A stretch of DNA of 64,000 nucleotides from Kingella negevensis. GTDB lineage: Bacteria; Pseudomonadota; Gammaproteobacteria; Burkholderiales; Neisseriaceae. Shown piece after piece: positions 24,464 through 62,860 of this stretch. How positions within the stretch are numbered: the first letter of the stretch is position 1; each line of letters opens with the position of its first letter. Under the pieces are notes generated by a model, which saw nothing but the letters and a program-made list of their open reading frames with translations, was not told the origin of the DNA and did not search any database. The stretch is taken from NCBI RefSeq assembly GCF_030177895.1, contig NZ_CP123448.1, forward strand, positions 1,922,001 through 1,986,000, in the 5' to 3' direction. The position numbers and the translations under genes are program-made.

Positions 24464-26137
24464 ATGGCTCAATACGTTTATTCCATGTTGCGCGTGAGCA
24501 AAGTCGTTCCGCCGCAAAAAACCATTATCAAAGACATTTCCTTGTCGTTTTTCCCCGGCGCAAAAATCGGTTTGCTGGGCTTGAACGGCGCGGGTAAATC
24601 CACCGTTTTACGCATTATGGCGGGCGTGGACAAGGAATTTGAAGGCGAAGCCGTGCCAATGAGCGGTTTGAAAATCGGTTATCTGCCGCAAGAACCTGAA
24701 TTAGACCCTGAAAAAACCGTCCGCGAAGAAGTGGAAAGCGGTTTGGGCGAAGTGGCAGCCGCACAAAAACGTTTGGAAGAAGTCTATGCAGCCTATGCTG
24801 ACCCTGACGCGGATTTTGACGCTTTGGCGGAAGAGCAAGGACGTTTGGAAGCGATTATCGCGGCAGGTTCTAGCACAGGCGGTGGCGCGGAACACGAATT
24901 GGAAATCGCGGCGGACGCGTTGCGTTTGCCTGAATGGGACGCGAAAATCGGTAACTTGTCGGGTGGCGAAAAACGCCGCGTGGCGTTGTGCAAGTTGCTG
25001 TTGAGCAAACCTGATATGTTGCTGTTGGACGAGCCGACTAACCACTTGGACGCGGAATCGGTTGATTGGCTGGAACAATTTTTGGTGCGTTTCCCCGGTA
25101 CAGTGGTGGCGGTTACGCACGACCGCTATTTCTTGGACAACGCGGCGGAGTGGATTTTGGAGCTTGACCGCGGACATGGTATCCCTTGGAAAGGCAATTA
25201 TTCGTCTTGGTTGGAGCAAAAAGAGCAACGCCTTGAAAATGAAGCGAAATCGGAAGCGGCGCGTATCAAGGCAATGAAACAGGAATTGGAATGGGTACGC
25301 CAAAACGCGAAAGGTCGTCAGGCGAAATCCAAAGCGCGTTTGGCACGTTTTGAAGAAATGTCTAATTACGAATACCAAAAACGCAATGAAACACAGGAAA
25401 TTTTTATCCCTGTTGCCGAGCGTTTGGGTAATGAAGTGATTGAATTTGAAAATGTTTCTAAATCGTTTGGCGACCGTGTGTTGATTGATGATTTGAGTTT
25501 CAAAATTCCAGCAGGCGCGATTGTCGGCGTGATTGGTGCGAACGGTGCGGGTAAATCCACATTGTTCAAATTGATTTCGGGCAAAGAACAACCCGATTCA
25601 GGCAGCGTGAAAATTGGTCAAACGGTAAAAATGTCATTGATTGACCAAAGCCGTGAAGGTTTGCAAAATGATAAAACGGTGTTTGATAACATCGCGGAAG
25701 GTCGTGATATTTTGCAAGTGGGGCAATTTGAAATCCCTGCGCGTGCGTATTTGGGGCGTTTCAATTTCAAGGGTAGCGACCAAAGTAAAATTGCTGGGCA
25801 GTTGTCGGGCGGCGAACGTGGACGTTTACATTTGGCGAAAACGCTGTTGGCTGGCGGCAATGTGTTGTTGCTTGACGAGCCGTCTAACGATTTGGACGTG
25901 GAAACTTTGCGTGCGTTGGAAGATGCGTTGTTAGAATTTGCAGGCAGCGTAATGGTGATTTCGCATGACCGTTGGTTCTTGGACAGAATTGCGACACATA
26001 TTTTGGCTTGCGAGGGCGATTCAAAATGGGTGTTTTTTGACGGCAACTATCAGGAATACGAAGCGGATAAAAAACGCCGTTTGGGTGAAGAAGCGGCGAA
26101 ACCAAAACGCATTAAGTATAAACCTGTAACACGTTGA
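24464..26137 (+). CDS. ettA: Energy-dependent translational throttle protein EttA
   Basis: EttA is an ABC-F ATPase that binds the ribosomal E site and gates entry into elongation according to ATP/ADP level. The 557-residue product has two ABC domains, Walker A GLNGAGKST and GANGAGKST, two LSGGE signatures (NLSGGEKRRVAL and QLSGGERGRLHL), and catalytic motifs DEPTNHLD and DEPSNDLD. The charged linker between them (about residues 240-310) is the P-site tRNA-interaction motif. No membrane segments. It stands alone behind a DUS pair. Confidence 0.95.
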   Translation: MAQYVYSMLRVSKVVPPQKTIIKDISLSFFPGAKIGLLGLNGAGKSTVLRIMAGVDKEFEGEAVPMSGLKIGYLPQEPELDPEKTVREEVESGLGEVAAAQKRLEEVYAAYADPDADFDALAEEQGRLEAIIAAGSSTGGGAEHELEIAADALRLPEWDAKIGNLSGGEKRRVALCKLLLSKPDMLLLDEPTNHLDAESVDWLEQFLVRFPGTVVAVTHDRYFLDNAAEWILELDRGHGIPWKGNYSSWLEQKEQRLENEAKSEAARIKAMKQELEWVRQNAKGRQAKSKARLARFEEMSNYEYQKRNETQEIFIPVAERLGNEVIEFENVSKSFGDRVLIDDLSFKIPAGAIVGVIGANGAGKSTLFKLISGKEQPDSGSVKIGQTVKMSLIDQSREGLQNDKTVFDNIAEGRDILQVGQFEIPARAYLGRFNFKGSDQSKIAGQLSGGERGRLHLAKTLLAGGNVLLLDEPSNDLDVETLRALEDALLEFAGSVMVISHDRWFLDRIATHILACEGDSKWVFFDGNYQEYEADKKRRLGEEAAKPKRIKYKPVTR

Positions 26138-52204: not shown

Positions 52205-52525
52205 TTAATACCGCTTCATCTCAGGCTCAACTTCTTGAGCCCAAGCATCAATCCCCCCGCGCAAATTATAAAGTTCCTCAAACCCAGCATGCTCCAAAAA
52301 TCGCGCCACATTCAGGCTGCGAATCCCATGATGACAATACACCACAATCGGCACTTCATCAGGCAACTCACTTTGGTGCAACGGCACCAAATTCATCGGA
52401 ATATGCACGCAGCCTGAAAGCTGACAAATCGCCAATTCCTCATCTTCGCGCACGTCCAACAAAATCGTATCAGGATGTTGCGCCAAAAATTCTTTCAATT
52501 CAATTGGTTTCAATTCAGTAATCAT
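52205..52525 (-). CDS. Rhodanese-like domain protein
   Basis: A 106-residue single-domain rhodanese (sulfurtransferase fold) similar to GlpE. It has TILLDVREDEELAICQL at the N-terminus, the catalytic cysteine in VVYCHHGIRSLNVARFL (Cys near 66) and GGIDAWAQEV at the end. Substrate unknown; it could pass sulfane sulfur or act on cyanide. Its ATG overlaps the xerD stop (ATGA), so it is translationally coupled to xerD. Confidence 0.88.
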   Translation of the reverse strand: MITELKPIELKEFLAQHPDTILLDVREDEELAICQLSGCVHIPMNLVPLHQSELPDEVPIVVYCHHGIRSLNVARFLEHAGFEELYNLRGGIDAWAQEVEPEMKRY

Positions 52526-53406
52526 GATTCATTCCTAGACCGTGGGTGAAATGAATCCACCACATTTTTCAAACGCTCATTCGCCACATGCGTATAAATC
52601 TGCGTGGTCGAAATATCCGCGTGTCCCAACAAAAGCTGCACCACGCGTAAATCCGCCCCATGGTTTACCAAATGCGTGGCAAAAGCATGGCGCAAACTGT
52701 GCGGCGAAACATGGCTGCCCATGCCCACCTGTTCCGCATAACGGCTCACCGCCATCCACGCCAACTGACGGCTCATGCCTACCTTTTTCTGCGACACAAA
52801 CAATTCATCACACCGCGCCCCTTTCAGCAAAATCCCACGCGCCTGCGACACATACAATTCCACCCAATAAACCGCCTCCTCACCCATCGGCACAATGCGC
52901 TGTTTATTGCCCTTACCAATCGTGTTCACCATACCGCTCTGCAAATTCACCTCGTCCAAACGCAAATTCACTGCTTCGCTCACACGCAACCCAGTCGCAT
53001 AAATCAACTCCAACAACGCCTTATCACGCAAACCGTAAACCGTTTCCGTGTCAGGCGCAGCCAACAACGCGTCCACATGCACCTCCGTGATAATCGGAGG
53101 TAACAAGCGCGGCTGCTTACCTGCTTTCAAATCACGACACGGATTGTCTTCACGCACGCCCGTTTCTTCCAGCCAAGTGTACAACCGCTTGCACGCCGAC
53201 AACGCACGCGCCTGAGAACGTAGCTTTTCCGTTTCCACATAAACCGCCGCCGCAATATCCGTGCTTTGCGCGTTCATAAAATCCAATTTCGCCGTCGCCA
53301 AACGCTGCGCCACCTTGTTCAAATCACGGCGATACGCCTCCAAAGTGTTTTGCGACAAACGCTCTTGTAACCACAAATGGTCTAATAACTTTTCAATCCA
53401 ATCCAT
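52522..53406 (-). CDS. xerD: Site-specific tyrosine recombinase XerD
   Basis: XerD with XerC resolves chromosome dimers at dif under control of FtsK. The 294-residue protein has the SAM-like N-terminal domain (LWLQERLSQNTLEAYRRDL) and a catalytic domain. Arg is in YATGLRVSEAVNL, Lys in TIGKGNKQRIVPM, His/Arg in SPHSLRHAFATHL, His in LLGHADISTTQIY, and the nucleophile is the Tyr in QIYTHV. It is the first gene of a two-gene unit with the rhodanese. Confidence 0.93.
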   Translation of the reverse strand: MDWIEKLLDHLWLQERLSQNTLEAYRRDLNKVAQRLATAKLDFMNAQSTDIAAAVYVETEKLRSQARALSACKRLYTWLEETGVREDNPCRDLKAGKQPRLLPPIITEVHVDALLAAPDTETVYGLRDKALLELIYATGLRVSEAVNLRLDEVNLQSGMVNTIGKGNKQRIVPMGEEAVYWVELYVSQARGILLKGARCDELFVSQKKVGMSRQLAWMAVSRYAEQVGMGSHVSPHSLRHAFATHLVNHGADLRVVQLLLGHADISTTQIYTHVANERLKNVVDSFHPRSRNES

Positions 53407-55685: not shown

Positions 55686-56993
55686 ATGCACGAAATCAAA
55701 TGCCCCCATTGTCACACCGCGTTCACGATTAACGAAGCCAGTTATGCCGACATCTTAAACCAAGTCCGCACGCAAGAATTTCAAGCCGAAATTCACGAGC
55801 GATTAGTGCAACACCAAGCGCAAGCCAAAAGCGAATTGGCATTGCAACAAGCGCAAGCACAAACGCAATTTGAACAAACCTTAGCGCAAAAAAATGCTGA
55901 AATCGCCCAATTAAACAGCCAATTAGCATCGCATGAAAAAGACAGACAATTAGCCGTTGCTGAAGTTTCAGGCAGCCTGAAAGCGGATTTGGCAACGCGT
56001 GAACGCGAAATTGAGCAACTGCGCGCACAAAATGCTGCGTTGGTTGAGCGTATGAATTTGGAGCGTGATTTGGCAATTAGTCAAGCATTGGCGGCAAAAG
56101 AACGCGAGGTGCTGGATTTAGAGACTCAACTGAAATTGAGTGAATCAAAAAATGAATCAGAACAACGTGCGCTGCAAGATAAATTTCAAATGGTTTTGAA
56201 AATTAAAGATGAAGAGATTGCAGCTTATAGAGATTTCAAGGCGAAGCAGTCCACAAAAATGGTCGGCGAGAGCTTGGAATTGCATTGTGAAAACGAGTTC
56301 AACCGTGTGCGTGCGATGGCGTTTCCGCAGGCGCAGTTCGGCAAGGACAACGATGCGTCTTCAGGCAGCAAGGGCGATTATATTTTCCGCGAAACAGACG
56401 GGCAGGGCAGCGAAATCGTTTCCATTATGTTTGAAATGAAAAATGAAAACGATGGCACAGCAACCAAAAAGAAAAACGTGGATTTCCTGAAAGAATTGGA
56501 CAAAGACCGCCGCGAAAAAGGCTGTGAATATGCGGTGCTGGTGTCGCTGTTGGAAGCGGATAGTGATTTGTATAACGGCGGCATCGTGGACGTGTCGCAT
56601 CATTATCCGAAGATGTATGTGGTGCGTCCGCAGTTTTTTATTCCGATGATTTCGCTGTTGCGTAATGCGGGCTTGAATGCGTTGCAATACAAGCAGGAAG
56701 TGGCGACGATGCGCGCGCAGAATATTGATATTACAAACTTTGAAAGTGAGCTGGACGATTTCCGTGAGAAGTTTGGTCGCAATTATCGTTTGGCGAGTGA
56801 GAAGTTTCAGGCTGCGATTAAGCATATTGATGAAACGATTAAGCATTTGGAAAAGACGAAAGCGGATTTGCTCGGTGCGGAAAATAATTTGCGTTTGGCG
56901 AATGATAAGGCGGAAGATTTGACGGTGAAGAAATTGACGCGCAAAAATCCGACTATGAAAGCGAAATTTGATGCGTTGAATAATGGGGAATAA
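55686..56993 (+). CDS. DUF2130 family protein (coiled coil plus PD-(D/E)xK-like nuclease fold)
   Basis: A 435-residue cytoplasmic protein. A short N-terminal zinc-ribbon-like stretch ([12 protein letters not shown]) is followed by a long coiled coil rich in Gln, Ala and Glu (about residues 30-190). The DUF2130 domain comes next, with [12 protein letters not shown] and [13 protein letters not shown]. The D...E-x-K arrangement (GDY...FEMK) is compatible with a PD-(D/E)xK nuclease core. A C-terminal coiled coil ends the protein. Function unproven; RmuC-like roles in DNA metabolism have been suggested for such proteins. It borders the phosphorothioation island. Confidence 0.82.
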
Positions 56994-56994
56994 T

Positions 56995-57034
56995 AAAAAG
57001 CAGCCTGCACATAATTAAAGTGCAGGTTGCTTTT
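56995..57034. terminator. Hairpin with AAGCAGCCTGCA uptake sequence, left edge of island
   Basis: AAAAAGCAGCCTGCAC pairs imperfectly with GTGCAGGTTGCTTTTT. The left arm holds a perfect AAGCAGCCTGCA (56998-57009), a DUS dialect different from that of the rest of the window. It lies between the convergent DUF2130 gene and the FtsK-like gene. Confidence 0.7.
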
Positions 57035-58618
57035 TTATATGTTGTAGCCGTGTAAAAATCGCGTTTCGCTGCCGTCCCATTTAATTAAATGGTCGCCATA
57101 GCCTGCTAATCCTTCCGCACCCGATTCGCCCAAGATGATATTAGACGATTGGTGTTTGCCAACACGCAAGGCAACTTTGGAATTGAGATTGTCGCGCAAT
57201 CGTCCGCTTAATGTTGCAGAATCAGGGCGTTGTGTTGCCACGATTAGATGAATTCCTGCTGCGCGTGCTTTTTGCGCTAATCGTACCAAAGGCTCTTCGG
57301 CAGATTTATCGGCATCAAATAAATCGCCTGCTTCTTCTACTAAAACCACGCAATAAGGCGGTCTGGCATGGTCGGCTAAATCGCTGACTTTGTTTTTGTG
57401 ATGTGCCTCCAATAAACTATATCGCTCTTCCATTTCATCAACCAAATCATGCAAGGTTTGCACCATTTCATCAATTTCTGTGATGACGTTGCCACCTACT
57501 AAATGTGGATAACGCTTAAACTCTTGATAGTCCACGCGCTTGGGGTCAAGAATATACAATTTCACGTCTTTTTCCGAATTTAATTGACACAAACTGTGCA
57601 ACATGGCGCGGATAAACACGGATTTGCCTGATTTGGTTTCGCCAGCGACAACGCAATGCGGCGCATCGGTTAAATCGGCAAATTGTGCGTTGCCTGCTTC
57701 ATCAATGCCAATGCACACGGGCAATTTTTCGTTTTTGCGCTGAAATTGCGTTAAGGCAGCCTGAAATTCAGCTTTGCCAAAATCACGCCATTCTTTGCGC
57801 GGACGTAAGATTTTCAAATCAAACGTATAAAGCGTACCGCAACTGGTATTGCGTTCTATGCGTAAAGCATGGTCGGCAATATTGAGTTCGCTGCGTAAGG
57901 TTTTTTGTTTACTTTCGTTGCTGTCCAAATCGCTGGCTTGTTTGAGTTGCACACGAAAGCAGCCATAGCGCAAGCCATTGGCGATGAGTTCTACTTTTTC
58001 GGCAGCTAATTTTGCGCGTTCCAAGGCTTTTTTGACGATTTCGGCATCTAATACAATGCTGTTTTCGTGGTCTGAATGGTCATTATTTTGCAGGCTGCTT
58101 GGTGCGGTTTTTTTGCGTGAATTGGAATGTTTTTGCGCTAATTTTGCCAATTCTTCCAAAAATTGTTTTTGTGCGTCCAATTCAGAATGCTCGTTGTTTT
58201 TGCGATAGGTATACCACCGCTTTTCCAGCTCAACTGCGCCTGTGTGCCACAAATCTTGGATAAATTGATACAAATCATCTCGCGTGCAAGGTTTGCCTTG
58301 TTTCAATTCAAATAGGGCATCGCTTAAATAAGCCAGCCACAATCGGGCTTCTTTTTGAAAACAGGTTTCAAAATTGGGGATTTCGCTGCCTTTGGCATCG
58401 GGTGCGGTTTCTAAATGTGGTATTAAATCTTTTGCAAAACAATATGCAATGCAAAACATCGCCCAGTCGTAGTTATTATCAAAAGCGGGCAATGCGCCTT
58501 GATTGGCTAATTCTTTGCGAACTTCTTGGCTTTTCAGGCTGCCTTTGATTCTGGGTTTCATCAATTCGTGAAACCATTCTGTATCCCAGCCTGTTGCGGT
58601 ATTGACTTGATAGGACAT
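57035..58618 (-). CDS. FtsK/SpoIIIE-type DNA translocase with DndE-like N-terminus
   Basis: A 527-residue soluble protein. From about residue 200 it follows the FtsK alpha/beta core: KVELIANGLRYGCFRVQLKQ, Walker A GETKSGKSVF (from residue 326), KLYILDPKRVDYQEF, Walker B CVVLVEEAGD and IHLIVATQRPDSATLSGRLR. The transmembrane part and gamma domain of FtsK are absent. Residues 1-130, around NNYDWAMFCIAYCFAKDL and DDLYQFIQDLWHTGAVELEK, follow the helical layout of DndE, a small protein of phosphorothioation operons. The gene starts 9 bases after dndD. It probably moves or scans DNA for the Dnd machinery. The DndE link is inferred by eye. Confidence 0.75.
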   Translation of the reverse strand: MSYQVNTATGWDTEWFHELMKPRIKGSLKSQEVRKELANQGALPAFDNNYDWAMFCIAYCFAKDLIPHLETAPDAKGSEIPNFETCFQKEARLWLAYLSDALFELKQGKPCTRDDLYQFIQDLWHTGAVELEKRWYTYRKNNEHSELDAQKQFLEELAKLAQKHSNSRKKTAPSSLQNNDHSDHENSIVLDAEIVKKALERAKLAAEKVELIANGLRYGCFRVQLKQASDLDSNESKQKTLRSELNIADHALRIERNTSCGTLYTFDLKILRPRKEWRDFGKAEFQAALTQFQRKNEKLPVCIGIDEAGNAQFADLTDAPHCVVAGETKSGKSVFIRAMLHSLCQLNSEKDVKLYILDPKRVDYQEFKRYPHLVGGNVITEIDEMVQTLHDLVDEMEERYSLLEAHHKNKVSDLADHARPPYCVVLVEEAGDLFDADKSAEEPLVRLAQKARAAGIHLIVATQRPDSATLSGRLRDNLNSKVALRVGKHQSSNIILGESGAEGLAGYGDHLIKWDGSETRFLHGYNI

Positions 58619-58627
58619 TTTTTTCCC

Positions 58628-60688
58628 TTAATTAAAATATTGATTGGCAAGTACATGGGACTGTGCGCCACCTGTTGGCAACGATTTGGCGCGTACTAAA
58701 TAGGTGCTGCAAATGTGTTTAGCCAGCTCTTGACGGATTTCGGCGGTGATTTCGGTATCTTGCGATAATAAAATCACTTGTTGCGGCAAACGTGTCCAAT
58801 GGTTGAACAAGCCTTGGCGGTGTCCTGCGTCTAAACGTGCAAGCGGCGTATCAATCACCATTGGTGCGTGATAACGGGTAACTTGTGCCAATGCCGATAC
58901 CAGCGACATAATCAAAATTTGCATTTGTCCTGCGGCTAGGGCAGCCTGAATTTTTTCGCCATTACCACCATACAAACCCAGTTGTCCGCCTGCTTGTACT
59001 TCAATGCGTTGAATACGCTGGTCGTGTGCAATATTTTTGTGCAATTTGGTGGCGATGTTGCCCAAATCATTGGCTTTGGTTTGCAGCAATTTATTGGCGA
59101 GACTTTCAATCATTTGCTCCATGCGTTTGGCGCGTTCGGATTTTTGGTGCTGTGGCGAATTATTGGCAGATTCTTGGCGCAGTCGTTCTACTTCAAGTTG
59201 CCAGCGGTGGGTATTTTTTTCTTCTTGCTCACATTTGGTGAGCGCACCGCCTAATTTGCCATTTAAATCGTCCAATGCGTGATGAACTTGCTCTAATTCT
59301 TCCACTAATTCATCGTTGCCTGTGCCTTTGAGTATGGCGATTTTGCTTGCCATGTCTTGTGCAATGCGTTCTTGTTCGCTGATGTTATCCAAAATTTCGC
59401 CAATATTAGACAGGGGCGATGCGCTTAATTGACGGATTTGATTGCGAATATCTACCGATGCACTGGGCGATAAATAATTGTGTTCAATTTGTTCGGCGCA
59501 ATTTTCAGGCAGCGGATAAAACAAGCTATTCCAGCATTCTCGCACTGCGTCTTTCATCAGTTCATCAGATAAAATGGTTTGTGCAGAACGCCCTAACACT
59601 TCTTTTACTTTGTCGCTGTTTTGAAATTTATTCCAAAAATCATCAACTTTATCGCCAATTTGGTCTTTATTGCTTTCGTAGCCCAAACGGTTGGCTTCTT
59701 TTTCCAGTTGTAAATCCAATTTATCCAATCGCGCTTGCGGTAAAAACGCCAATGGCATGGCTAATACCGCTTCTTTCATCGTATCGCGGAATTTTTGCTG
59801 CATGATTTCGGCTTCTTTTTGCGCTTTGGCAAGGTCTTCGGTATGCACAATACTGCTGCTTCCGCCCAATGTTTGCGTTAATGTATCTCGGCGTTGGGTG
59901 TATTCATTGATTTGATTGAGTAGGGTTTCTTGTTTTTCGCGTTCTTCTTGCAAAATGGCTTCTGCTTGAATCAATTTGCTTTCCGCTTCTTTTAAAGCAG
60001 CCTGCACTTTGGCAGAAGCACTGGCGGAAATATTTTGAGTGCGAAATTGACTTAAACTTTCTTTAAGTTGATTGAGCAATGTAATGCCCAGCAAACCCAT
60101 CAACGCATCTTTTAGCCAAATACCTGCGCCACTTTGTGCGGCGGTTTGCACAATTTTTTCGCCATCAAAAAAGAAAAATGGTGCGTAATCCGATGGGGGA
60201 GCAAAGCGGCTAAAAAAGTTGCGTTGTTGTGAAGGAGGAATCAGTTTTTTGCCACTTTGGTCGTTACGCATATACCAAAGCGCATATTCACGCGAATTTT
60301 CGGCAGAATATGAGAAATTGCGGTTGGCATCAAAATACCATTTACGCGCGATTTTTAGTGTATGCACCACATCACGACTGCGTAGGCTAATTTCCAATTC
60401 CACCGACATGGTGTGATTGCCACGACGCGCTTGGGCTTGATGAAATAAGGCTTGATTGATAAAACGTGGATAGCTGTGTTCTTGCGAATTTAAACCTGCG
60501 CGATTCAAATGCACAATCGCATCGGCATCATATAAACCCAAATAAATTGCTTCGAGCAGCGTGGTTTTGCCGTGTCCGTTTTCTGCGCCAATCAACACCA
60601 AGTTTTTGCCGTTTTGCGGTTCCGGGAACGTAAATTCTGCATCGGCATACGATTTGAAATTGTGTAATTTAATTTTGCTAATCCACAT
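58628..60688 (-). CDS. dndD: DNA phosphorothioation ATPase DndD
   Basis: DndD is an SMC/Rad50-like ATPase of the DNA sulfur-modification complex. The 686-residue protein has ISKIKLHNFKSYADAEF, Walker A GAENGHGKTTLLEAIYLGLY (residues 34-43) and a central region of long coiled coils (about 230-300 and 470-560). It ends with the signature and Walker B region AAGQMQILIMSLVSALAQV and MVIDTPLARLD. No CxxC zinc hook is evident. Start 60688 is chosen since upstream residues of the frame overlap the preceding small gene. Four bases separate the two genes. Confidence 0.88.
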   Translation of the reverse strand: MWISKIKLHNFKSYADAEFTFPEPQNGKNLVLIGAENGHGKTTLLEAIYLGLYDADAIVHLNRAGLNSQEHSYPRFINQALFHQAQARRGNHTMSVELEISLRSRDVVHTLKIARKWYFDANRNFSYSAENSREYALWYMRNDQSGKKLIPPSQQRNFFSRFAPPSDYAPFFFFDGEKIVQTAAQSGAGIWLKDALMGLLGITLLNQLKESLSQFRTQNISASASAKVQAALKEAESKLIQAEAILQEEREKQETLLNQINEYTQRRDTLTQTLGGSSSIVHTEDLAKAQKEAEIMQQKFRDTMKEAVLAMPLAFLPQARLDKLDLQLEKEANRLGYESNKDQIGDKVDDFWNKFQNSDKVKEVLGRSAQTILSDELMKDAVRECWNSLFYPLPENCAEQIEHNYLSPSASVDIRNQIRQLSASPLSNIGEILDNISEQERIAQDMASKIAILKGTGNDELVEELEQVHHALDDLNGKLGGALTKCEQEEKNTHRWQLEVERLRQESANNSPQHQKSERAKRMEQMIESLANKLLQTKANDLGNIATKLHKNIAHDQRIQRIEVQAGGQLGLYGGNGEKIQAALAAGQMQILIMSLVSALAQVTRYHAPMVIDTPLARLDAGHRQGLFNHWTRLPQQVILLSQDTEITAEIRQELAKHICSTYLVRAKSLPTGGAQSHVLANQYFN

Positions 60689-60692
60689 GGTT

Positions 60693-60914
60693 TTACTCTT
60701 TCCAATAATCTGTATTGCCCAGCACATCATCAAAAGTGGCACGGCGATTGTCGGCGCGTCCACGTTCTTGTTGCGCCATTTCCCACGCCAGCAGTTCGGC
60801 TAACGCATCTTCGGGTACTTGAAATTCAACAGCGGTTTGACGCAACAATGAACGCGCTGTTTCATCTTGCCACAACATCAAATGTTCTAATTTTTCTTGT
60901 ACTTCTGCTTTCAT
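60693..60914 (-). CDS. Small Dnd-associated protein
   Basis: A 73-residue acidic, helical protein starting MKAEVQEKLEHLMLWQDETA, lying exactly between dndC and dndD. Its ATG overlaps the dndC stop (ATGA) and its stop is 4 bases before the dndD start, so all three are translationally coupled. It has no signal or membrane segment. Annotations of similar operons contain an uncharacterised 'DNA modification system-associated small protein' in this slot, and this is likely a member. It may be an adaptor between DndC and DndD. Confidence 0.75.
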   Translation of the reverse strand: MKAEVQEKLEHLMLWQDETARSLLRQTAVEFQVPEDALAELLAWEMAQQERGRADNRRATFDDVLGNTDYWKE

Positions 60915-62029
60915 TTTTTGCTCCGAGAGTGGGCGTTAATCACGTCTTTTGCCCAAGTTTGTTTAATCCATTCAATTTCTTTATCAGAAATCAGCTCCGC
61001 GCCAAAAGCAGCCTGCACTTCCAATAATTTATCCAACATCATTTTTCGCGCTTCAACGGTAAACGGGCCGGGAATGTGTTGCCCATTTTTGTATTCCACG
61101 CGTCCGTTGCGCCGTTCCATTTGGCGATATTCGGGCTTATTGCGAATCTCCACTAACCAATCCCGAAACTCAATCAATGGCAAAAATTCCGTTTTTCCTA
61201 CATCAACAAAGCCTTGCAGGCTGCGGTCTTTATTCACCACCGTGCAAGTCCAGCAGCCAAAACGACTGGAATTCGTGCCGCAGCCTGGGGCTTCTTCCTG
61301 CGATAACACAATCGGACATTCGCCGCCTGCTGCTTCACGATACAAACGAATCAAATCATCATGCGTACCGCCCCAAGGCGGATTGTTCGCTGCCAAAAAT
61401 TCCCACACATCATCGGTTGTTAAATCCACAATCGGGCGATAAACAAACGCATTGGGCAAATCATTGTGTGGCGTGAGATTGGAATTTTCTAAATTTTGAT
61501 GGCGTTCAATGCTGGCTTTGCGCGTGGACGATTCGTCTTTTCGCACGCCCAACACGATGATTGCTGCGCCGTTTTCATCCACTTTTTGCTTGATGTAGCC
61601 GCTAGTCGGTTGAATTTTCAGGCGGTCGGTACACCAACGCATGGAACGGTTTGGCGTGGGATAACCTTTACCAATCAACAATGTCCAAAAGGTTTCTTGC
61701 AATTTTGGAACAGTTACTTCCCCAGTTACAGGCAGCCTGAAAATTTCTGCTGCGTTCAAAATCGTATTCAGCGCGTTGCGCATGTGTTGCACGACCAGCG
61801 GACTTTCCACCAGCGTGTCATTAGAAACAAAATACACGTTTCGCTGACGCAAAGACGGTGGCAACGACAGAAGCATTTCAAAAACCAAATGCGCCACAAG
61901 CGTGCTGTCTTTGCCACCCGAAAACGTAACAATCCAAGGGTAATGCTGCGCCGTGCTTAAATATTCATCAGCAATGTTTTGTCGGATTTCATCAAAAGGC
62001 GAAAGGGGTTGAATCGGGATAACAGTCAT
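60911..62029 (-). CDS. dndC: DNA phosphorothioation sulfurtransferase DndC
   Basis: DndC is a PAPS-reductase-like enzyme that activates the DNA backbone with ATP and passes sulfur from a cysteine desulfurase. The 372-residue protein has the PP-loop SGGKDST at 37-43, SNDTLVESP, RWCTDRLKI (Cys133) and a cysteine group GCGTNSSRFGCWTC (Cys250, 259, 262). These four cysteines could hold the iron-sulfur cluster known for DndC. It is shorter than the about 500-residue Streptomyces enzyme. No dndA is adjacent, so the housekeeping IscS probably donates sulfur. It is the first gene of the leftward operon. Confidence 0.92.
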   Translation of the reverse strand: MTVIPIQPLSPFDEIRQNIADEYLSTAQHYPWIVTFSGGKDSTLVAHLVFEMLLSLPPSLRQRNVYFVSNDTLVESPLVVQHMRNALNTILNAAEIFRLPVTGEVTVPKLQETFWTLLIGKGYPTPNRSMRWCTDRLKIQPTSGYIKQKVDENGAAIIVLGVRKDESSTRKASIERHQNLENSNLTPHNDLPNAFVYRPIVDLTTDDVWEFLAANNPPWGGTHDDLIRLYREAAGGECPIVLSQEEAPGCGTNSSRFGCWTCTVVNKDRSLQGFVDVGKTEFLPLIEFRDWLVEIRNKPEYRQMERRNGRVEYKNGQHIPGPFTVEARKMMLDKLLEVQAAFGAELISDKEIEWIKQTWAKDVINAHSRSKK

Positions 62030-62060
62030 TTTTGTGGTTCATTTCATCGTTTTAATCTTA

Positions 62061-62083
62061 TTTGCTCCTAAAACAGGTGCAAA
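62061..62083. promoter_or_regulatory. Operator 1 of the divergent Dnd-XRE promoter region
   Basis: Imperfect dyad TTTGCTCC-TAAAACA-GGTGCAAA: 7 of 8 arm positions pair. It lies between divergent dndC and the XRE gene and is very like operator 2. The XRE protein encoded alongside is the probable ligand. Confidence 0.65.
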
Positions 62084-62087
62084 GCGG

Positions 62088-62110
62088 ATTGTACCTAAAA
62101 TTGGTGCAAT
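62088..62110. promoter_or_regulatory. Operator 2 of the divergent Dnd-XRE promoter region
   Basis: Imperfect dyad ATTGTACC-TAAAATT-GGTGCAAT: 7 of 8 arm positions pair and the 7-base spacer starts TAAAA as in operator 1. Its centre lies 27 bases to the right of that of operator 1. It abuts the earlier candidate start codon of the XRE gene (62109). Confidence 0.65.
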
Positions 62111-62147
62111 GAAAAACCCACGTTTATCCATACACTCCACAGAACAC

Positions 62148-62366
62148 ATGAAGTTGCGACAACTCCTTATTCGGCGGCGACTAGATTTAGGATTGTCGCA
62201 ACGCGCATTGGCGGAAAAATTAGACGTGGTGCATTCGTTTATCGGCAAAGTGGAAACAGGCGACAGAAGATTAGATGTATTTGAATTTGTGGAATATTGT
62301 CATGCGCTGGATTTGAACGCCGCCGACATTTTGCAGCAGCTACAAGCAGAATTGGACGCAGAATGA
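62148..62366 (+). CDS. XRE-family transcriptional repressor
   Basis: A small helix-turn-helix protein, 72 residues from ATG 62148 or 85 from ATG 62109. LRQLLIRRRLDLGLSQRALA and EKLDVVHSFIGKVETGDRRL form a Cro/C1-type HTH, and LDLNAADILQQLQAEL may be a dimerisation helix. It lies head to head with dndC across two dyad operators, so it probably represses both directions. Its stop overlaps the next start codon (ATGA). It could take the regulatory role played by DndB in other systems. The start is uncertain because no clear RBS is seen. Confidence 0.82.
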   Translation: MKLRQLLIRRRLDLGLSQRALAEKLDVVHSFIGKVETGDRRLDVFEFVEYCHALDLNAADILQQLQAELDAE

Positions 62367-62824
62367 ATCATCAATCATTGTTTTATTACGCGAATGGTTT
62401 TAGACAACTACACACCAATTTCACGCACAAAAACAACCAATCGCCACATAAATTTATTCTGATGCTCGCGGTTGTGGCGTTGTATGAAAAAAGCAGCCTG
62501 CACACAGAAAAAGTCGTTTTAAACGATGAATTGAAACAAGAATTTGAACGACAATGGGCGTTGTGGGTACAAAATTCGCATCATAAAATGAACTTCGGCA
62601 TGCCCTTGTATCACATGAAATCTGAACCGTTTTGGCGATTTCATCTCAAACCAGATAGCGAATCCGAGTTTGAAAACAAACACCGCATGAAAACCTTTTC
62701 CAGTTTGTGCGAAGTCGTGGAATATGTGGAATTGGACGCAGATTTGGTTGCGCTGTTCAAGCAGCCTGCAACGTGTCAGATATTAAAAGACGTGCTGTTG
62801 GCGCGATTATTTGAAATTCTGTAA
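62363..62824 (+). CDS. Stand-alone sulfur-binding-domain-like protein
   Basis: A 153-residue protein resembling the N-terminal sulfur-binding domain (SBD) of HNH endonucleases that cut phosphorothioated DNA. It has SPHKFILMLAVVALYEK (compare the family's KPxLLLAVLDL), VVLNDELKQEFERQW, GMPLYHMKSEPFWRF (compare PFFHLKSDGFW) and VEYVELDADLVALF. Unlike those enzymes it ends after the domain, with no HNH. It is translationally coupled to the XRE repressor and divergent from dndC. It may read phosphorothioate marks to signal to the repressor or to an effector. The start at 62363 overlaps the XRE stop. Two AAGCAGCCTGCA uptake sequences lie within it. Confidence 0.65.
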   Translation: MNHQSLFYYANGFRQLHTNFTHKNNQSPHKFILMLAVVALYEKSSLHTEKVVLNDELKQEFERQWALWVQNSHHKMNFGMPLYHMKSEPFWRFHLKPDSESEFENKHRMKTFSSLCEVVEYVELDADLVALFKQPATCQILKDVLLARLFEIL

Positions 62825-62860
62825 AAAAGCAGCCTGCAACTTAAATGTGCAGGCTGCTTT
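62825..62860 (+). terminator. Hairpin with paired AAGCAGCCTGCA uptake sequences, right edge of island
   Basis: AAAAGCAGCCTGCA pairs with TGCAGGCTGCTTT across an 8-9-base loop. Both arms are perfect copies of the AAGCAGCCTGCA dialect. It directly follows the SBD-like gene. Confidence 0.8.

Follow-up and report, generated by a model that had tools for sequence, protein, structure and literature searches.

A compact phosphorothioation-type island of Kingella negevensis with a DndE::FtsK fusion and a small protein homologous to the C-terminus of DndC

The locus described here is an island at positions 57035-62824 of a window of the Kingella negevensis genome, the window being the whole stretch of 64,000 nt that was analysed (contig NZ_CP123448.1); coordinates are window positions, unless a locus (L number) is named. 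Its closest described relatives are Dnd systems for phosphorothioate (PT) modification of DNA. A subtype in which a DndD-related ABC ATPase stands beside a DndE fused to a HerA/FtsK motor was already in print in 2024, and related systems are known to include a small protein (SP) (PMC10853773). The island shows this combination of fusion and ATPase, but it adds an SP corresponding to the tail of DndC, an XRE-type regulator with tandem operators and a stand-alone sulfur-binding domain (SBD) protein. In the main text of that paper 'xre' occurs 0 times, and the SBD is treated in its accessible part as a portion of an HNH protein. Classical DndBCDE, as in Escherichia coli Ecol_316 (L187), shares homologues of DndC, DndD and DndE in the same order, but differs by a DndC of 544 aa with a fused tail, by the lack of an annotated SP, by the presence of DndB and by a separate DndE of 117 aa. 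Another group of loci (L207-L211, L213) shares the DndE::FtsK fusion and DndD with the island; here the SP domain is still on DndC (broken in L213) and five of the six have a trailing ATPase and a second gene resembling AriA/AriB of PARIS. Finally, PbeABCD/CxC systems are alike in that they have a small protein and that the island's ATPase reaches its best PADLOC score with a PbeC model, whereas the island has DndC and lacks both the HKD-helicase PbeA and a zinc hook.

We read the island as a compact, motor-assisted PT writer of the DndE::HerA/FtsK subtype and put the probability of this reading at roughly two in three. A sequence-only reading had presented it as a minimal variant with an unusual gene set. 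Since the subtype is published (PMC10853773) and the core recurs in Neisseriaceae and on plasmids, it is not a new system; what appears to be new, judged by the accessible parts of the literature searched, is the identity of the SP and the control/reader arm.

All six frames of the island are intact, with dndC, SP, dndD and dndE::ftsK directed leftward and the XRE and SBD genes rightward (Table 1). An ATGA overlap is found at both the dndC/SP and the XRE/SBD junction, and the remaining leftward gaps measure 4 and 9 bp; for DndD (ATG), XRE and SBD the starts were revised to those in the table. The sequence-only reading had listed this gene order and orientation and the start/stop overlaps, as well as the PP-loop and cysteines of DndC, an FtsK core, an SBD-like protein, shared operators and the lack of dndB, dptFGH and sspE, all of which is borne out by the evidence given below.

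DndC exceeds the TIGR03183 cut-off (371.6 versus 290.4 bits), the match ending at position 362 of the 447 of the model. It carries the PP-loop SGGKDS and five cysteines (C133, C238, C250, C259 and C262) and, with PP-loop and Fe-S cysteines, belongs to the Dnd PT-modification module; the PDB gave no match to it. According to an alignment of 20 DndCs, the Kingella protein lacks the C-terminal DndD-docking part of long DndCs. The same alignment gives its specificity loop as N-R-S, with N-R-S, N-R-N and others in the relatives. Published loop classes are T-R-S (GAAC/GTTC), T-Q-N or N-Q-T (GATC) and R-X-K/R (GGCC) (PMC12193691); the N-R-S loop is closest to T-R-S, yet it lies outside all three. This misfit, the Dnd cores without PT genes noted in PMC10853773 and the broken frames in four copies from other genomes (G017, G026, G030, G061) would suit an island that writes a different modification or is inactive. 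With the PP-loop and cysteines of DndC in place and all six frames of the window intact, we consider this very improbable.

The SP scores above the PF20306 cut-off (43.6 versus 27.2), a family of which Pfam states only that it is 'found in certain Dnd DNA modification systems'. Sequence comparisons indicate that it is the detached C-terminus of DndC. In a profile comparison, 22 SPs matched the tails of 11 long DndCs with a probability of 94 and a score of 42.8, as against at most 19.0 for 200 column-shuffled tails, 10.3 for the reversed tail and at most 17.0 for control families set against the SPs (DndD, FtsK family, SBD, tail-less DndC). Neisseriaceae SPs alone reached 35.5 and three non-Neisseriaceae SPs alone 41.1, and when only classical DndC tails were used the result was 94.1% with a score of 43.8. 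The SP model finds the tail in 7 of the 12 long DndCs searched at E 2e-4 or better, and weakly in the other 5. In a family search with the DndC model, TIGR03183 positions 372-446 match the SP gene of one genome (G048; 19.4 bits, E 5.9e-4), and in G061 the match to this model continues through two stops into the SP. Among 398 genomes PF20306 had two matches (29.5 and 20.9, cut-off 27.2), both C-terminal on long DndC frames. An SP accompanies a short DndC in 19 of 19 cases and a long DndC in 0 of 12, these being related and not independent sequences. Omitted from this count are G017 and G148 (broken DndC), G043 (DndC frame starting late, SP present), G030 (no DndC), Mesorhizobium amorphae L124 (SP away from DndC and poorly aligned), G203 and G140 (partial DndC) and the low-scoring or unclustered DndC-like proteins of L169-L171 and L173-L176; kept are G061 (DndD in two frames), G026 (DndE::FtsK in two frames) and G041 (core over two contigs), and E. 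coli L187 counts as a long DndC without SP by annotation, not by an SP search of the locus. In five intact sister loci with the DndE::FtsK fusion the tail is still part of DndC, and a separate SP gene is lacking. The homology of SP and tail, PF20306 on long DndCs, the pattern of short and long DndCs and the fused sister loci together point to a gene split or fusion.

The SP aligns to residues 437-486 of the 544-residue E. coli DndC. The specificity loop starts at residue 135 both in this protein and in DndC of E. coli B7A, and their total lengths differ by four. In the latter, residues 433-482 are reported to bind the head of DndD, as judged by AlphaFold3 and pull-downs (PMC12193691). The predicted role of the SP is hence that of a DndC-DndD docking adaptor. 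For the SP of CxC systems a negative regulator or a sensor of viral triggers has been proposed (PMC10853773), and a small and divergent protein such as this one could be a disordered regulator of that kind instead of a docking domain; its homology to the DndC tail and its strict association with short DndCs speak against this, and we hold it improbable. The accessible part of the same paper contains no mention of a link between SP and DndC, and our literature search found no paper on such a link. Understood as a split-off DndC tail, the SP is assigned a specific and cheaply testable function, and the short DndC of such systems is explained.

In the fusion protein a DndE domain (about residues 1-145) is followed by a low-confidence linker (166-187) and an alpha+beta motor of the FtsK type (about 190-527 in the model), which passes PF01580 and has the Walker A motif GETKSGKS at 326. 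The DndE part was identified through profile comparison with PF08870-positive relatives and stand-alone DndE. A structural search returned no DndE fold among its matches, the list being filled by FtsK-type motors, and is evidence neither for nor against.

Relatives were sought in 83 Neisseriaceae genomes (G numbers), reached through a Snodgrassella contig. A scan of genome contigs with one protein had given no match; with an alignment it gave 80 loci which, by their match ranges, are like ordinary FtsK motors and served only to reach the Neisseriaceae. The DndE-containing N-terminal half was found in 18 of the 83 genomes and DndC above its cut-off in 17, all within those 18, the eighteenth (G030) being decayed. 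In these 17 genomes dndC, SP, dndD and dndE::ftsK occur together, although G017, G026, G043 and G061 have frames that are broken or shortened and in G041 the core is divided by a contig break. The same four genes are present on plasmids of Aureimonas, Burkholderia glumae and Rhizobium phaseoli, where they are already annotated as DndC, 'DNA modification system-associated small protein', DndD and FtsK. Several flanking genes are common only to G023 and G047; a few single flanking genes recur elsewhere and most do not, and the block has thus moved as a unit. Thus, when the six-gene order proposed by the sequence-only reading was looked for in other genomes, the four-gene core recurred, the XRE gene adjoined dndC in 14 of 18 relatives and an intact SBD gene stood beside the core in only 4 of 18.

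Decayed or interrupted copies of the island were seen in L113 (G030), L117 (G017), L111 (G026) and L119 (a Moraxella osloensis plasmid). L103 and L114 (G023 and G047) have the same chromosomal flanks, but their DndD and DndE::FtsK proteins score clearly differently against those of the window, which looks like the replacement of one allele by the other. Directly 3' of dndE::ftsK an annotated TusA-family sulfurtransferase is located in Aureimonas (L120, 10347-10583) and in Rhizobium phaseoli (L122, 10386-10589), perhaps a dedicated sulfur carrier.

Several observations weigh against a motor-assisted writer of this subtype. DndD matches TIGR03185 over its full length at 224.1, just below the cut-off of 245.85, and in PADLOC it scores better with a PbeC model (387.5 bits) than with the DndD models (245.3); of the two proteins for which a check against curated families had been proposed, DndC passed and DndD fell just short. 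PF08870 does not match the fusion protein of the window even at E 1, and the N-terminal profile gave no alignment with a single DndE sequence of E. coli. Compared with the tails of DndE::FtsK-type long DndCs, the SPs score lower (79.4%, 31.5). The adaptor role draws on homology and on an interface that was predicted, and tested by pull-down, only for E. coli proteins, and that of the motor is deduced from its fold. In 14 of the 18 core relatives, moreover, no intact SBD gene adjoins the core, the gene being missing, interrupted or located elsewhere.

In controller-regulated restriction-modification (R-M) systems a small XRE-type gene lies upstream of the endonuclease gene and overlaps it, the operators are in tandem and the modification operon is divergent. 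The island is alike in its small XRE-type gene overlapping the reader gene, its tandem operators and its divergent modification operon, and differs in that a gene without a nuclease domain occupies the place of the endonuclease. The XRE protein matches PF01381 and, at 3e-5, the 'control protein' models of PADLOC; its best PDB matches are the uncharacterised helix-turn-helix proteins 3eus and 3f6w, followed by C.BclI (1.2e-5), C.AhdI (1.2e-3) and others. By sequence it resembles controller (C) proteins. Between the divergent operons there is a direct repeat of two palindromic sites with 9-bp arms, 27 bp apart; the pattern, written from these sites and those of relatives, matches twice in the window and in none of 100 shuffles. 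Nine of the 14 XRE-bearing relatives have two sites exactly 27 bp apart (at least 13 of 18 arm positions), and the other five have one site at this threshold, a weaker second copy being visible in three. No operator pair was found in the examined stretches of four XRE-less relatives or in four plasmid loci; L113 holds a lone stray site (13/18), away from the dnd remains. The layout mimics a controller-regulated R-M system, with the SBD in the place of the endonuclease.

The SBD protein matches NF045808 weakly (2.2e-4), on the SBD part of that model, and a profile of nine SBD sequences matches PDB entry 8h0l (SBD_Hga) at 8e-20. Its AlphaFold2 model (mean predicted local distance difference test score 89.0) spans the SBD fold. 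With it, Foldseek gave two PDB matches at E 0.001 or lower, both chains of 8h0l (template modelling score 0.82), the next being mostly complexes of SBDs with PT-DNA. The sulfur pocket of ScoMcrA is formed by H116, R117 (K) and P165 (PMC6224610). H29, K30 and P81, invariant in nine of nine SBDs, are their equivalents as read through the 8h0l alignment and not from a direct ScoMcrA alignment; the position of Y164 is M or L here. SBD fold and the H-R/K and P of the pocket are thus both present, in likeness to ScoMcrA, SprMcrA and SBD_Hga, but the island protein has no HNH or SRA domain, in difference to ScoMcrA and SprMcrA, and adjoins a predicted PT writer. Pfam recognises no nuclease domain in it, in contrast to PT-dependent SBD-HNH endonucleases. 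By fold and pocket residues it would be a nuclease-free and optional PT reader. How often SBD-HNH genes stand beside PT writers is reported discordantly in the accessible parts of two papers, as under 3.6% (PMC7461809) and as 698 taxa with winged helix-turn-helix, SAD and HNH in Dnd loci (PMC10853773).

SBD relatives occur in 11 of the 83 genomes: intact beside the core in four (G004, G023, G041, G047), as a fragment in G014, unlinked in four core genomes (G010; G025, partial; G030, with decayed core; G048) and without a core in G003 and G059. This makes 9 of 18 core genomes versus 2 of 65 others (p 6e-6), or 4 of 13 versus 2 of 65 if only unlinked SBDs are counted (p 0.006), both uncorrected for kinship. 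In L139 (6000-6470) and L141 (5930-6502) the SBD gene lies away from a dnd core, near genes that by eye are like carbamoyl-phosphate synthase genes; G003 is coreless and G048 has its core elsewhere. Such scattering, and the uncharacterised proteins ahead of C proteins in the PDB search, would fit XRE and SBD as an unrelated passenger pair, such as an orphan regulator or a relic of a PT-dependent type IV enzyme. Given the frequent place of XRE beside dndC, the operators, which in the stretches examined accompany XRE and are missing at this place from the four relatives that lack it, the enrichment of SBDs in core genomes (one fragment, one partial copy and one decayed core included) and the conserved pocket, we think a passenger pair unlikely, if still the most serious of the alternatives.

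No nuclease or restriction function was recognised in the island. Its proteins include no DndB, DptFGH or SspE, no DndF, DndG or DndH, and no PbeA HKD nuclease-helicase beside the ATPase; SspB nickase and SspE were looked for in the island, no genome-wide search being made. None of the six genes encodes a cysteine desulfurase (DndA or IscS). In the 83 relatives DndB was over its cut-off in none (one weak match), and so was dnd_assoc_3 (TIGR03238; 39 weak matches), which we take to be a member of the DndFGH set, the DndF and DndH models not being searched there. An HNH gene of R. phaseoli in the XRE/SBD position (L122) showed no similarity to SBD-HNH. Six Neisseriaceae genes beside XRE, dndC or FtsK were scanned as hidden effectors and dismissed: an LpxL-type acyltransferase, a permease, a ParA-type ATPase, a fatty-acid-synthesis protein and two without Pfam match. 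A PADLOC scan of ten other large genes of the window showed no clear defence gene, that at 24464-26137 matching generic ATPase models. The lack of a recognised nuclease in the island favours a writer whose restriction partner is unlinked or absent over a complete, self-contained defence system in which the FtsK motor, the SBD or both would take over restriction from DndFGH or SspE; the latter we regard as improbable. The sequence-only reading had let FtsK and/or the SBD replace the usual restriction and control parts; a restriction role for either is unsupported, while a putative control/reader arm was seen in the C-like XRE, the operators and the SBD.

The sister operons of the DndC-DndD-DndE::FtsK type end, in five loci, in an AAA ATPase and a second gene (Table 1). 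The pairs of L209 and L211 match the PARIS models AriA and AriB and the remaining ones are homologous to these; the ATPase half also matches more than 100 PADLOC models in all, for example PtuA, and DUF4435 is just over the Pfam cut-off in L209 only. This is a possible effector pair without counterpart in the Kingella island. A more distant version of it follows FtsK in Mesorhizobium amorphae (L124).

As a motor-assisted writer, the island may work as follows. DndC would carry activated sulfur, presumably from a housekeeping desulfurase such as IscS. The SP would supply in trans the docking part that DndC lacks and, by its homology to the mapped DndC segment, dock DndC onto the head of the DndD ATPase. 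DndE would read and hold the DNA, physically tied to an FtsK-type double-stranded DNA motor that may move the writer along. The controller-like XRE would bind the two operators and set the expression of both operons, and in some strains a co-expressed nuclease-free SBD would bind PT-DNA as a reader. What the host gains is probably the PT mark as such, or protection against a nuclease partner encoded elsewhere.

Table 1. Features of the island in window coordinates and, in the last row, of sister loci in coordinates of the loci named
Feature	Position	Strand	Remarks
DndE::FtsK fusion	57035..58618	-	527 aa; profile comparison (DndE), model and fold (FtsK), motif
DndD/PbeC-type ABC ATPase	58628..60688	-	686 aa; without CxC or CxxC zinc hook
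SP (PF20306, Sp-DndD)	60693..60914	-	73 aa; overlaps dndC stop (ATGA); PF20306 above cut-off
dndC	60911..62029	-	372 aa; TIGR03183 above cut-off, alignment of 20 DndCs, motif positions
Operator 1 of tandem pair	62061..62083		TTTGC(T/A)CCT-N5-AGGTGCAAA
Operator 2 of tandem pair	62088..62110		27 bp from operator 1; overlaps XRE start codon
XRE, controller-protein-like regulator	62109..62366	+	85 aa; PF01381, PDB matches
Stand-alone SBD protein	62363..62824	+	153 aa; profile match to 8h0l, alignment, AlphaFold2 model and Foldseek
Left-end copy of 12-mer AAGCAGCCTGCA	56998..57009	+	
Inverted pair of 12-mer AAGCAGCCTGCA	62827..62859		directly after SBD stop; possible terminator and right island end
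AAA ATPase and second gene (sister loci)	L207 7848-9892; L209 8027-10096; L210 1787-3860; L211 111-2192; L213 1408-3512		

The island is flanked by a DUF2130 gene (55686-56993) and by an MFS transporter gene that runs from 62908 past the end of the window; a gene of the phage-integrase family (52522-53406) lies about 4 kb to its left. The closest FtsK-fusion protein, with 98% identity, is named Kingella kingae, and no DNA match to phage records was found. AAGCAGCCTGCA has 8 copies in the window, every one of them within 56998-62859, where they mark the island ends; at even spread the chance of this is about 5e-9. AGGCAGCCTGAA has 29 copies across the window, 3 of them in the island versus 2.7 expected at even spread. 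We take the two to be the Kingella uptake dialects AA-king3 and AG-king, respectively. Kingella-type DNA uptake dialects of these names are given in PMC3630211. The confinement of AAGCAGCCTGCA suggests that the island was taken up by transformation, the donor being a Kingella of another dialect.

It is tempting, if speculative and in our estimate rather improbable, to generalise these results. PF20306 SPs may be detachable docking adaptors, and a tail-less DndC may make the scanner of ABC ATPase and DndE a modular platform for different enzymes; here it would be pulled along DNA by FtsK, and the SBD, which is nuclease-free and takes the place of the endonuclease in a controller-type circuit, would read the sulfur mark and feed back on the system rather than cut. 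Comprising a four-gene writer, one regulator and one nuclease-free reader, the island is a small natural set with which to ask whether PT marking serves a purpose in the absence of restriction, and whether the place of PT writing depends on a translocating motor.
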